From Winogradskyella sp. J14-2 (GTDB lineage Bacteria > Bacteroidota > Bacteroidia > Flavobacteriales > Flavobacteriaceae), in the NCBI RefSeq assembly GCF_001971725.1, contig NZ_CP019388.1:1364001-1428000 (forward strand): 64,000 nucleotides of DNA, written 5' to 3'. The translations under genes were made by a program, and so were the position numbers. Numbering within the stretch: position 1 is the first letter of the stretch; each line of letters opens with the position of its first letter. Below, in pieces: positions 31,557 through 51,590 of the stretch. The notes beneath the pieces were generated by a model, which was not told the DNA's origin, ran no database searches, and was given only the letters and a program-made list of their open reading frames with translations.

Positions 31557-31580
31557 ATGCTTCGACAAGCTCAGCATGAC
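31557..31580. repeat. Dispersed palindrome (CTTCGA...CTCAG family) between permease and prc
   Basis: ATGCTTCGACAAGCTCAGCAT is an imperfect palindrome (ATGCT/AGCAT) with the same CTTCGA...CTCAG core as the elements at 27317, 50255, 50595 and 50654. It lies in the 53-base gap between two minus-strand genes. Confidence 0.7.
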
Positions 31581-48911: not shown

Positions 48912-48919
48912 TATCTTTG
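48912..48919 (+). promoter_or_regulatory. -7 box upstream of HMG-CoA reductase
   Basis: TATCTTTG fits TAnnTTTG and lies 21 bases before the ATG at 48941. Its last three bases form the in-frame TTG at 48917, so that TTG is unlikely to be a start codon. Confidence 0.55.
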
Positions 48920-48940
48920 CAATTCAAAATCAATTTAACT

Positions 48941-50245
48941 ATGCCAACCGCTATTTCTGGCTTCTCTAAACTATCTAAAGCTGAAAAGATTGAATGGCTT
49001 TTAGACACTTATTTTTCTAACAAAGAACATGCACGAAAACTAGTACAACAGTACTGGAATTCTGACGAAAAGCTTCAAAAGCTTCACGATGAGTTTATAG
49101 AAAACACCATTACTAATTATTATTTACCTCTTGGTGTTGCTCCAAATTTCTCAATCAACAACAAACTCTACACCATCCCAATGGCAATAGAAGAAAGTTC
49201 TGTGGTAGCAGCAGCTAGTAAGGCGGCAAAATTTTGGCTAGATAGAGGTGGTTTTAAGGCTGAAGTGATTTCGACAGAAAAAATTGGTCAAGTTCATTTT
49301 ACGTATACTGGTAATTTCGAAAAGCTACAATCTTTCTTCGAAATTGTAAAACCGAAACTGATTGAAGACACTAAAGCCATCACTAAAAATATGGAACGCC
49401 GTGGTGGAGGTATTCTAGATATTGAACTTAAAAATAAAACCAAAGATTTAGAGCACTACTACCAATTGCATGCTACCTTTGAAACACTAGATGCAATGGG
49501 TGCCAACTTTATAAATTCTTGTTTAGAACAATTTGCTAAAACCTTTAAAGCCGAAGCCCAAGCACAATTAGAAGACGATGTGAATATCGTAATGAGTATT
49601 CTCTCTAACTATGTACCTAATTGTCTGGTTAGAGCTGAAGTGTCTTGCCCTATCGCTGATTTAAAAAGTAAAGACATAACAAACCCAACCCTATTTGCCG
49701 AAAAATTTAAACAAGCGGTTAACATCGCTGAAATTGAACCTTACAGAGCTGTAACACACAACAAAGGTATAATGAACGGTATTGATGCTGTGGTTTTAGC
49801 AACAGGTAACGATTTTAGAGCTGTTGAAGCTGGCGTACATGCTTATGCTGCAAAAGATGGAAAATATAAAAGCTTAACGCACTGTTCTATTGAAAACGAT
49901 ACTTTTAAATTTTGGATTGAAATTCCACTTGCATTAGGAACAGTTGGAGGCTTAACAAGTTTACACCCTTTAGTTAAGTTTGCTTTAGAAATGCTAGAAA
50001 AACCATCTGCAAAAGACCTAATGCAAATTGTTGCTGTAGCAGGTTTAGCTCAGAATTTTGCAGCTGTAAAATCCTTAACGACTACTGGTATTCAAGAAGG
50101 CCATATGAAGATGCATTTAATGAACATATTAAATCAGTTTGAAGCTACCTCAGAAGAAAAAGAAAAAATAGTAGCGCATTTTAAAACTAACGTGGTAACA
50201 CATAGTGCAGTTGTTGAAGCTATTGAAAACGTAAGGAAAATTTAA
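48941..50245 (+). CDS. mvaA: Hydroxymethylglutaryl-CoA reductase, class II
   Basis: 434 residues from the ATG at 48941 (MPTAISGFSKLSK). The class II pattern is present: the N-terminal ISGFSKL, PMAIEESSVVAAASKAAKFW near 80-100, catalytic-region NKGIMNGIDAVVLATGNDFRA, and GTVGGLTSLHPLVKFAL. It makes mevalonate from HMG-CoA with NAD(P)H. Classed as degradative by sequence, but in Flavobacteriia this form is used for the mevalonate pathway. The next gene, a GYDIA-type GHMP kinase, supports that. A short palindromic element lies between the two at 50255. Confidence 0.93.
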   Translation: MPTAISGFSKLSKAEKIEWLLDTYFSNKEHARKLVQQYWNSDEKLQKLHDEFIENTITNYYLPLGVAPNFSINNKLYTIPMAIEESSVVAAASKAAKFWLDRGGFKAEVISTEKIGQVHFTYTGNFEKLQSFFEIVKPKLIEDTKAITKNMERRGGGILDIELKNKTKDLEHYYQLHATFETLDAMGANFINSCLEQFAKTFKAEAQAQLEDDVNIVMSILSNYVPNCLVRAEVSCPIADLKSKDITNPTLFAEKFKQAVNIAEIEPYRAVTHNKGIMNGIDAVVLATGNDFRAVEAGVHAYAAKDGKYKSLTHCSIENDTFKFWIEIPLALGTVGGLTSLHPLVKFALEMLEKPSAKDLMQIVAVAGLAQNFAAVKSLTTTGIQEGHMKMHLMNILNQFEATSEEKEKIVAHFKTNVVTHSAVVEAIENVRKI

Positions 50246-50254
50246 TTTTAACTG

Positions 50255-50278
50255 GTGACTGAGCGTAGTCGAAGTCAC
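50255..50278. repeat. Palindromic element left of the GIY-YIG minigene
   Basis: Outer arms GTGACT and AGTCAC enclose a CTGAG...TCGAAG core. It is the left flank of the GIY-YIG coding segment and is in the opposite orientation to the element at 50595. Confidence 0.75.
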
Positions 50279-50294
50279 ATTATTAGTCATATAA

Positions 50295-51590
50295 ATGCCA
50301 AAAGGATACGTTTATATATTAGAATGCGCTGATGGTTCTTACTATACTGGTAGTACTATTGATATTGAAAAACGTATTGCAGAACACATTGATGGTAAAG
50401 GTGCTAATCATACAAAAAAGCGTCTACCTGTAGCGCTAAAATATATTGAAGAGTTTCAAAGAATAGATGATGCTTTTTACAGAGAGAAACAAATTCAAGG
50501 TTGGAGTAGAGCAAAAAAAGAAGCTTTAATCAGCAACAACTCTGACAAATTACCAGAACTTTCTTTGGCTTATAGAGATAAGAAAAATCAATATGGTGGC
50601 TTCGAGAGCCTCAGCCATCAAAAATACGAGGACAACAATAAGTTGAACAAACCGGTGCCTGAGGCACTCGAAAGCACATTATATTATAAAAGCAACGGAA
50701 AATTATTAATCACTGGTGAATACGTTGTGCTAGATGGTGCAAAATCATTTGCCATACCAACAAAATATGGTCAAAGCCTTAAAGTTGAAGAAACCAGTAG
50801 CAATACCTTAACATGGAAGAGCTATGATGAAAAGGATAATGTTTGGTTTGAGAATAGTTTCACTTTAGAAAATGGTGAGCTTCTTAAAACCATTGAGAAT
50901 GATAATGATGTTTCTACTCGATTAGTACAGATTCTTAAAGCCGCTCAACAACTAAATCCAAACTTTTTAGAAAACGAAAAAGGGTATAAGATTTCAACGC
51001 ATTTAGAGTTTAACAGAAAATGGGGTCTTGGAACCTCCTCTACATTGATAAACAATATTGCGCAATGGGCAGATGTTAATGCTTATCAACTTTTAGAAAA
51101 AACTTTTGGCGGTAGTGGTTACGATATTGCTTGTGCCCAACATGACACACCGATAACATTTCAGTTAAAGCCAACTAATTCGCCTATTGTTAACGCAGTT
51201 GAATTTAATCCATCTTTTAAGAACAACCTATACTTTATCTATCTCAACCAAAAGCAAAATAGCAGAGACGGTATTAAAGCGTATAGAGCATTAAATAAAT
51301 TGAATAGTAACATAATTAGTGAAGTCAATTCGCTTACGGAAAGCATTATCAATTGCTCTGAACTTACTGTTTTTGAAAATCTGATAACTAAACATGAAGA
51401 ACTAATAGGTGAATTAATTAATCAAACACCTATTAAATCAAGGCTATTTGACGATTATAATGGATCTATTAAGAGCTTGGGAGCTTGGGGAGGAGACTTT
51501 ATCTTGGCAACTTCAGAAAGTGATCCTAGCAACTACTTTAAATCAAAAGGACTAGATGTTATCATTCCTTTCACTGAAATGGTAAAATAA
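50295..51590 (+). CDS. GIY-YIG nuclease domain fused to GYDIA family GHMP kinase
   Basis: 431 residues. Residues 1-95 are a small GIY-YIG nuclease (YVYILECADGSYYTGS, Arg27 in EKRIAEH, catalytic-type Glu64 in YREKQIQGW). Residues 101-127 are a linker encoded by two palindromic repeats. Residues 129-431 are a GHMP kinase: YKSNGKLLITGEYVVLDGA, ATP loop GLGTSST at 244-250 and GGSGYDIACA at 272-281. The kinase likely acts on mevalonate or phosphomevalonate beside mvaA. It has no ATG or other start of its own at the expected place (TTATATTATAAA), so it seems to be made only as a fusion. Whether the nuclease is active is unknown. Confidence 0.85.
   Translation: MPKGYVYILECADGSYYTGSTIDIEKRIAEHIDGKGANHTKKRLPVALKYIEEFQRIDDAFYREKQIQGWSRAKKEALISNNSDKLPELSLAYRDKKNQYGGFESLSHQKYEDNNKLNKPVPEALESTLYYKSNGKLLITGEYVVLDGAKSFAIPTKYGQSLKVEETSSNTLTWKSYDEKDNVWFENSFTLENGELLKTIENDNDVSTRLVQILKAAQQLNPNFLENEKGYKISTHLEFNRKWGLGTSSTLINNIAQWADVNAYQLLEKTFGGSGYDIACAQHDTPITFQLKPTNSPIVNAVEFNPSFKNNLYFIYLNQKQNSRDGIKAYRALNKLNSNIISEVNSLTESIINCSELTVFENLITKHEELIGELINQTPIKSRLFDDYNGSIKSLGAWGGDFILATSESDPSNYFKSKGLDVIIPFTEMVK
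50595..50619. repeat. Palindromic element in the fusion linker, first copy
   Basis: TGGCTTCGAGAGCCTCAGCCA has the CTTCGA...CTCAG order and is nearly identical to 27317-27340. It is read in frame as GGFESLSH. Confidence 0.75.
50654..50677. repeat. Palindromic element in the fusion linker, second copy
   Basis: GGTGCCTGAGGCACTCGAAA and the bases GCAC that follow form the same family in the opposite orientation to the 50595 copy (CTGAG...TCGAAA). It is read in frame as PVPEALEST. Confidence 0.7.

Follow-up and report, generated by a model that had tools for sequence, protein, structure and literature searches.

A 64,000-nucleotide window of the Winogradskyella sp. J14-2 genome (positions 1,364,001–1,428,000 of the single 3.35 Mb contig of this assembly, G000) contains a gene in which a GIY-YIG nuclease and a GHMP kinase of the GYDIA family, predicted to act in the mevalonate pathway, are encoded in one open reading frame (ORF) of 431 residues, at 50295–51590. 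Repetitive extragenic palindromic (REP) sequences accompany it in the order palindrome (+), nuclease, palindrome (−), palindrome (+), kinase (Table 1). A Pfam scan assigns residues 3–75 to the GIY-YIG domain PF01541 (E 1e-17; 64.6 bits against a cut-off of 22.6). The ORF belongs to the GIY-YIG superfamily, its conserved Tyr, Arg and Glu being Y7, R27 and E64. The GYDIA kinase model NF040656 matches residues 131–430 over profile positions 2–299 of 299 (E 2e-131; 437.9 bits against a cut-off of 225). Among the matches listed, the closest protein relative is that of Winogradskyella algicola (91% identity), and the nearest solved structures by sequence are the UPF0213 GIY-YIG proteins 1zg2 (E 1e-16) and 1ywl (E 6e-11) of the PDB. 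Both domains are folded in an AlphaFold2 model of the ORF, joined by a low-confidence linker.

An initial annotation, made from the sequence of the window, had described the three palindromes, the retention of Arg27 and Glu64, the in-frame junction of nuclease and kinase through the palindromes and the loss of the kinase start codon; all of these features are present as it said. The opposite orientation of the left and right palindromes also stood. The third copy needed a correction, for it faces the opposite way from the second. The stem sequences of the three palindromes are unlike one another, while their pairing is mostly kept. Upstream of the kinase motif SNGK the codons read ACA TTA TAT TAT AAA, and ATG, GTG and TTG are absent within 9 codons of the kinase core. 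The closest possible in-frame starts, a GTG at −12 and a TTG at −16 codons, both belong to the linker, and internal initiation of the kinase may occur from them. No Rfam family reached the gathering score between 50150 and 50750, where structured RNA was looked for, and the ORF holds no HUH Y1 transposase, PF01541 being the only hit of the Pfam scan. A further REP of a related family, TGTCATGCTGAGCTTGTCGAAGCATT, lies on the minus strand at 31559–31573 of the window.

Table 1. Features of the nuclease–kinase locus, in window coordinates
Feature	Position	Strand	Remarks
HMG-CoA reductase, degradative-type model	48917..50245	+	TIGR00532, 289.7 bits, cut-off 259.95
Left REP palindrome GTGACTGAGCGTAGTCGAAGTCAC, loop class II (CTGAGCGTAGTCGAAG)	50255..50278	+	Tag TGGT, not TGTC/CGTC; tag side outward
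GIY-YIG nuclease domain, codons 1-80, Y7/R27/E64	50295..50534	+	PF01541; conservation assessed in 57 fused homologs
Nuclease C-terminal tail, AYRD type (LPELSLAYRD)	50535..50579	+	Its type correlates with the REP loop class
REP-coded linker, residues 98-126, predicted disordered	50586..50672	+	AlphaFold2 predicted local distance difference test (pLDDT) <50
Right REP palindrome GGTGGCTTCGAGAGCCTCAGCCATC (minus strand TGGCTGAGGCTCTCGAAGCCA), loop class I (CTGAGGCTCTCGAAG)	50595..50619	-	Inverted relative to left copy; core at +23; encodes GGFESLSHQ in the ORF frame
Third REP palindrome GGTGCCTGAGGCACTCGAAAGCAC	50654..50677	+	Core at +81, plus strand; encodes PVPEALEST; directly 5′ of kinase
GYDIA-family GHMP kinase part, left edge approximate	50679..51590	+	NF040656; own start codon gone

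Inverted flanking repeats of GIY-YIG minigenes

Is this bracketing peculiar to one locus? The initial annotation had proposed that the nuclease and its flanking palindromes act as a small mobile or REP-associated unit; the association with REPs extends far beyond this locus, to loci from the genus, from plasmids and from other genomes. For each gene we compared the 150 bp on its 5′ side with the 150 bp on its 3′ side and scored their best inverted match, with no palindrome named in advance; a score of at least 14 was taken as a pass. The genus set comprised 102 genes in 96 loci (96 unique), drawn from G000 and the stronger genus matches (30 loci and 60 regions). Sixty-three of the 96 unique genes passed (63/102 with duplicates), compared with 6/597 shifted window pairs and 3/94 other G000 genes with both gaps of at least 60 bp. 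These intergenic-flank controls dropped to 0/94 at a score of at least 15, and at 16 or above the counts were 51/96 for genus genes, 1/597 for shifted pairs and 0/94 for other G000 genes. G000 itself has six minigenes with different flanking palindromes, five of which pass; the sixth, the window copy, scores 8.5, its left and right sides being of different loop classes. Several families are represented among the flanking repeats of the genus, many of them carrying a 5′ TGTC or CGTC. The left copy of the passing genes points outward in 45 cases, inward in 7 and both ways in 1, with 10 unreadable. Another type of GIY-YIG gene in G000 (L008) lacks matched flanks (score 8.0), and a further gene (L007), which we take from its length to be UvrC-like, reaches the end of its locus and was left unscored.

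The same arrangement recurs in other lineages. A tblastn search with the L006 gene of G000 against 72,556 plasmid records returned 33 records, and 13 of the 16 loci examined passed, as against 5/160 shifted pairs; strong repeats also occur in the shifted windows of several passing loci (S. meliloti, Rhizobium CIAT894, Neisseria). From a scan of genome contigs we took the best 80 of at least 575 relatives, mostly Alphaproteobacteria. Here 55/80 passed at 14 or above (controls 19/1644) and 43/80 at 20 or above (9/1644), and control genes within the same loci gave 0/15 even at 12 or above. Chance arising from intergenic REP clustering was rejected by the control genes (3/94 and 0/15). Seven of the 80 loci lie, by title, outside the Alphaproteobacteria: Parcubacteria (29.0) and one Bacteroidetes locus (17.5) pass, and the rest (the other Bacteroidetes locus, Campylobacterales, Thiobacillus, Cloacimonadota and Ignavibacteriales) score 7.5–13.5. 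The left copy faces outward in 29 of the 55 passing loci, inward in 4 and both ways in 12, and is unreadable in 10.

REPs have been divided into GTAG and CGTC super-families (Di Nocera 2013, PMC3733652); a CGTC unit has a CGTC, TGTC or CCTC tag, an 8–9 bp stem starting with AT and a tail that is mostly CCA, and the units occur mainly as head-to-head (HH) dimers with the tags outside. Judged by eye, the repeats flanking GIY-YIG genes have this canonical form, with a CGTC or TGTC tag, an 8–9 bp stem starting AT and a CCA tail, in Azospirillum lipoferum 4B (CGTCATCCCCGCGAAGGCGGGGATCCA), in Shinella and Neorhizobium (CGTCATCCTCGGGCTTGACCCGAGGATCCA) and in Aeromonas (CGTCATTCCCGCGCAGGCGGGAATCCA); it is not shared by the matches in S. 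meliloti and Rhizobium CIAT894. Across the genome loci, the 250-bp bins on the two flanks contain 44 and 45 outward hairpins headed by [CT]GTC and every other bin 0 to 8, and 31/80 loci have such hairpins on both sides. Inward ones are also raised (32 and 26 in the flanking bins, 0 to 10 elsewhere), which would be expected if one side often held a REP dimer. Eight Mesorhizobium loci (L197, L199, L208, L209, L211, L213, L229 and L238) have long composite flanking palindromes in which an insert resembling GCGAAGCAAGGAGCGAAGCGACGC is nested in the loop of a CGTC hairpin. On plasmid p1 of Planktothrix agardhii (L147, flank score 14.0) a minigene sits between a type IIL restriction-modification gene (MmeI) and the DISARM gene drmA.

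The palindromes of the window belong to dispersed families. The pattern CTGAGCGNAGTCGAAG has 37 copies in G000 compared with 0 for its reversed form, and is present in 54/68 genus genomes; the bare core TGAGN5TCGA occurs 101 times in G000 against 50 for the reversed control, and once in the window where 0.68 are expected, which is not beyond chance. The related families CTGAGCNTGTCGAAG, TCGAGCGNAGTCGAGA and CTGAACTNGTTTCAG are also dispersed, with reversed controls of 0. The left palindrome is found in nine of the ten genomes that carry the unit at the window's site, G037 being the one without it. The bracketing in the window is not a product of chance, because CTGAGCGNAGTCGAAG outnumbers its control by 37 to 0 and the same bracketing recurs in relatives. 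Copies are mostly intergenic: in 464 kb of G000 this holds for 9/12 copies of three motifs, intergenic bases making up 12.4% by a crude ORF call. Among 150 family C copies listed for G001–G028, pairs within 150 bp are + − in 17 cases and − + in 1, with gaps of 12–35 bp, so that 17/18 close pairs are HH dimers with tags outward, as in CGTC REPs; the TGTC with which the family's flank copies start was read in GIY-YIG flanks, not in each dimer. At G000:C1:541921-544077, at least six copies of CTGAGCCTGTCGAAG are spaced on one strand by multiples of 196 bp, so that the REP is part of a tandem array.

REP number follows the nuclease, loosely. Median family A copies are 33 in 10 carriers of the window subfamily and 4 in 58 other genus genomes (p 3.7e-6), while family C shows 5 and 4 copies (p 0.34). 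When each family was compared with its own nuclease after removal of the flank copies, p was 0.001 for A, 0.011 for B, 0.025 for C and 0.13 for D.

Occupancy of the HMG-CoA reductase/kinase junction and the kinase fusion

The kinase is present in 67/68 genus genomes. The genus has 12 members of the window's nuclease subfamily (at least 69% identity), ten of them between HMG-CoA reductase (HMGR) and kinase and two elsewhere (G017, G040). In eight of the ten the nuclease is fused to the kinase (G000, G002, G021, G026, G037, G044, G047 and G050), and in G008 and G014 the unit occupies the junction with the two genes unfused. We inspected 45 junctions and judged the other 22 from kinase and nuclease search results only. 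Of the 35 inspected loci that lack the unit, 22 show a kinase ATG or TTG at −4 to +5 bp from the HMGR stop; the remaining 13 have longer junctions (30–1070 bp) with a less clear kinase start, and one of these, G033, contains an assembly gap that could hide a unit. That the two genes abut and the kinase has its own start in 22/35 loci without the unit supports the initial annotation, which had the unit landing at the 5′ end of the kinase gene. Three carriers (G026, G044 and G050) have ATA where the start codon would be, so simple excision would not restore an ATG.

Occupancy is patchy. G026 carries the unit and its sister G023 lacks it, although the HMGR of both is 96% identical to that of the window. 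On an HMGR+kinase tree of 45 genomes the carrier state requires 9 changes, compared with 9.2 for shuffled labels, with at least 7 changes on supported branches. A single vertical insertion was considered and rejected (carriers as one clade, p 8e-94 in the approximately unbiased (AU) test on HMGR+kinase data); this is compatible with repeated gain and also with ancestral presence followed by many losses. Nuclease and host trees appeared strongly incongruent on proteins, but on DNA the host clade was not rejected by the AU test (p 0.079). The 65-bp junction of G046, the nearest tree relative of the carrier G047, holds TTGGTGCTGAG (L042, 1500–1520), which resembles the start of the left REP and is possibly the scar of a lost unit; it is short and may be chance. 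G014 has the GIY-YIG unit at its junction; its close relative G029 (L022) has there about 1 kb with another gene, which looks to us like an ADP-ribosylglycohydrolase, so the junction appears to take different inserts.

Sites without the unit, which the initial annotation had suggested looking for, were found in relatives both at HMGR/kinase and at sufB/sufC. In A. lipoferum 4B sufB and sufC are separated by the nuclease gene, which has one tags-outward REP dimer on either flank. The two genes stand without a unit, with spacers of about 55 to 130 bp, in A. ramasamyi, A. oryzae, Azospirillum sp. B510 and A. thermophilum (flank identity 96.8, 96.3, 95.5 and 91.0%, respectively). Clean empty counterparts thus exist for 2 of 3 insertion sites examined; for the third, in Shinella WSC3-e, relatives gave partial matches only and no clean counterpart. 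The unit has inverted ends, and no target site duplication was seen by eye at HMGR/kinase or sufB/sufC, where the spacers have diverged.

How widespread is the fusion? The fused query found the nuclease domain, by Pfam, in 61 of the best 120 homologs (7,999 scored), in proteins named Winogradskyella, Flavivirga, Olleya, Pontimicrobium, Bizionia and Aestuariivivens. Palindrome-free linkers in distant fusions would have spoken against the initial annotation; fused orthologs do exist in other genera, and most of their linkers contain palindrome-coded peptides. Among the 57/61 proteins kept by the search motif, 43/57 contain such peptides with the first motif list and 57/57 with a broader one drawn up once the linkers had been seen. 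By eye, three of the four dropped proteins fit (P0019, P0040, P0054), and the fourth, P0057 (Aestuariivivens), has no clear palindrome peptide. Peptides read as translated REPs include VTERSRS, LRLRSATE and TPLSH for class II and VASRTSAT, GGFENLSH and PEALEGT for class I, and linker length and sequence vary widely. P0048 (617 residues, Flavobacteriaceae bacterium LMO-SS05) has a 222-residue linker that consists mostly of RLRSATDQDLNSTPEKQQ repeats, that is, tandem translated REPs. The kinase of the fused protein P0079 is 73–83% identical to listed unfused kinases, several of them named Lutibacter, which suggests a separate acquisition. Among the matches listed by a second protein search, the fused proteins were all part of the earlier count. 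R27 is kept in 53/57 and E64 in 55/57 fused homologs, and the dN/dS (nonsynonymous to synonymous substitution ratio) of the nuclease, 0.03 to 0.43 for pairs with finite dS, indicates purifying selection. In G040 (L065, 739–1260) the frame of a 69%-identical subfamily member continues through a palindrome (DAERSRSGSDN) and on into the beginning of a gene that by eye resembles hsdS, the rest of which lies in another frame; it is a second fusion joint made by a REP.

The nuclease tail goes with the REP beside it. With tail and REP motif classes that were defined after seeing the linkers, AYRD tails accompany class I in 21/21 and ECKN tails class II in 33/33 of the 57 fused proteins; one AYRD protein has both REP classes and two have no tail class. 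A fresh set of 120 unfused relatives contained 106 ECKN tails, accompanied by class II in 42, class I in 0 and neither in 64. The left palindrome of the window copy is identical to that of G026 (1.00 over 44 bases, −45..0 region) and its codons 1–80 are 0.92–0.96 identical in nucleotides by segment, while codons 81–95 fall to 0.50 (0.69 to G047, 0.64 to G008), and its right palindrome is of class I with an AYRD tail, as in G047. The window copy looks like a chimera in which tail and right-hand REP were exchanged together. Such a joint exchange fits a tail that must match its REP, though adjacency and linkage alone could also give it.

A candidate mobilising enzyme for REPs

Based on these observations, we propose that the GIY-YIG nuclease recognises, cuts and spreads its own REP family, a reading to which we give a probability of roughly 0.6. 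The sequences themselves show the association with REPs, the inverted bracketing, the open frame, the coding of the linker and the sites without the unit; cleavage, recognition by the tail, spread, the order of events and the translation of the kinase as a fusion are inferred from them. REPs and nuclease gene would be the non-autonomous and autonomous forms of one element. The REP would form a hairpin or cruciform, and the nuclease, guided by its C-terminal tail, would nick at or beside it. Host repair or replication would then copy the tags-outward dimer, with or without the nuclease gene inside, to a new intergenic site. One Flavobacteriaceae subfamily would in this way have come to occupy the tight HMGR/GYDIA kinase junction in scattered species. 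There the nuclease frame runs into the kinase because the right-hand REPs have no stop in that frame; the kinase start codon would have decayed afterwards, leaving the kinase to be produced for the most part as a fusion whose linker is disordered and encoded by REPs. Most simply, the kinase fusion may be seen as a by-product of read-through of stop-free REPs at a site occupied in scattered species. In its wider form the proposal states that GIY-YIG minigenes are the mobilising enzymes of CGTC-type REPs in Bacteroidota and Proteobacteria, with sporadic cases in other phyla, and would constitute a second, independent class of REPtron with a REP-matched C-terminal tail, captured as an N-terminal fusion to a mevalonate-pathway kinase in Flavobacteriaceae; for this we judge the odds to be a little better than even.

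Several results weigh against the proposal. Not all loci reach a score of 14 (misses are 33/96 genus genes, 25/80 genome loci and 3/16 plasmid loci, namely Photobacterium 8.0, Rhizobium K1/93 7.0 and Spirosoma 10.0), and outside the Alphaproteobacteria the sample is thin, with passes at 2/7 genome and 3/5 plasmid loci (5/12). Some matched copies face inward (7/63 genus genes and 4/55 genome loci); likewise, a 70%-identical nuclease copy away from the kinase (L064, G017:C33:95144), which has an internal stop and looks decayed, has REP-like palindromes on both sides that face inward relative to the gene, contrary to the usual direction. The palindromes of the window locus lack a CGTC, TGTC or CCTC tag, reading TGGT or CGGT. 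Copy-number specificity is loose: carriers are also richer in families B (p 5.5e-5) and D (p 6.6e-4), family A goes with C-type nucleases as well (p 0.022) and family D with A-type ones (p 0.028), and the own-nuclease effect of family D is not significant (p 0.13). With phylogeny controlled the direction holds and significance does not: family A goes the same way in 3.3–3.9 of 7 pairs and the opposite way in 0–0.2, with a median p of 0.125–0.25. The classes of the tail match were set post hoc, and the fresh set covers one half of it only, the ECKN tails. R27 is replaced by K or S in 4/57 fused copies and E64 is changed in 2/57. Finally, the analysis is computational, and no cleavage or movement was observed.

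What else could produce this pattern? The intergenic GIY-YIG Seg/Mob genes of T-even phages provide the model for a free-standing homing endonuclease that invades REP dimers, its target being the dimer spacer, with the REPs spread by something else. The concentration of 10/12 genus subfamily members at one junction, the 9 changes of carrier state on the host tree where shuffled labels give 9.2, and the full tags-outward dimer that forms each A. lipoferum flank would all suit such a gene, and alleles without the nuclease gene exist at both HMGR/kinase and sufB/sufC. These alleles, however, show by eye no REP at the 22 tight junctions or at the sufB/sufC sites, and REP copy number loosely tracks the nuclease, so we regard homing as unlikely. 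Purifying selection (dN/dS 0.03 to 0.43) and the occurrence of the fusion in several genera would also be compatible with an enzyme of the host, or a domesticated one, that resolves REP cruciforms or that uses the flanking REPs as regulators or terminators, and moves nothing. The scattered presence in close relatives such as G026 and G023, and the six G000 minigenes with different palindromes and family-matched inverted flanks, are instead traits of mobile elements, and this house-keeping role seems to us quite improbable.

That the fusion itself is selected, as a bifunctional or localised kinase in which the REPs are linker relics, would account for its presence in 61 of the best 120 homologs (for a query that is itself fused), for the frame kept in 8/10 genus carriers and for the ATA at the expected kinase start in three of them. 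Yet 57/67 genus genomes with the kinase show no unit (one of them, G033, with its assembly gap), the linkers vary widely and are predicted to be disordered, and a member of the same subfamily is joined by a REP to the start of an hsdS-like gene (L065); we consider a selected fusion very improbable. Barely credible is a passive association in which REPs gather in the intergenic space where GIY-YIG genes happen to be: 9/12 copies are indeed intergenic in 464 kb of G000, but control genes with intergenic flanks pass in 3/94 and 0/15 cases, against 63/96 and 55/80 for the minigenes.

Relation to known REP and GIY-YIG systems

What are the implications of a putative REP-mobilising nuclease? REPs are widespread small repeats of bacterial genomes, and the question of an enzyme for the CGTC class has stood since 2013: in that survey the CGTC REPs, which include Neisseria dRS3 and Rickettsia RPE-4/RPE-6 and for which Azospirillum lipoferum is listed, seem to be without a dedicated transposase, and GIY-YIG is not mentioned there (PMC3733652). 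Nor do the words nuclease, transposase, RAYT (REP-associated tyrosine transposase) or GIY occur in the RepRanger paper (PMC12306157) by a word search. No GIY-YIG/REP pairing was found among the open-access papers listed by the literature searches. The GIY-YIG nuclease offers a concrete, small and expressible candidate enzyme for the CGTC class, with matched repeats for each family, and is likely the missing enzyme that spreads these hairpin repeats. The odd tails of GIY-YIG nucleases in databases (LRLRSATE, VASTPLSH, FDSAQ) would then be translated REPs, and at the window locus a dispersed repeat encodes the stretch that joins the nuclease to a predicted metabolic enzyme.

The flanks of GIY-YIG genes in Azospirillum, Shinella, Neorhizobium and Aeromonas share tag, stem, CCA tail and outward dimers with CGTC REPs, whereas the window palindromes carry a changed tag (TGGT/CGGT), and for that reason we do not file their family strictly as CGTC. 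Palindromes read in frame as a tolerated peptide are also described for Rickettsia palindromic elements inside ORFs (PMC3733652); unlike these, the window palindrome joins a nuclease to a metabolic enzyme. The UPF0213 GIY-YIG proteins 1zg2 and 1ywl, closest by sequence, were solved unfused. SegA-type free-standing homing endonucleases are likewise encoded by small intergenic genes with a patchy presence at one site. They are not known to be bracketed by dispersed palindrome families. A close parallel is the REPtron, RAYT/TnpAREP, in which REPs have co-evolved with the enzyme and the C-terminal tail of group 2 contacts the tag (PMC8266576). There, as here, a small nuclease gene is flanked by REPs, inverted copies of a dispersed REP in the case of the window, and the dimers have their tags outward. 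The REPtron pairs an HUH Y1 tyrosine transposase with a GTAG tag, while here a GIY-YIG nuclease goes with CGTC/TGTC or a variant tag. By this analogy, the window system appears to follow the TnpAREP plan with an unrelated nuclease.

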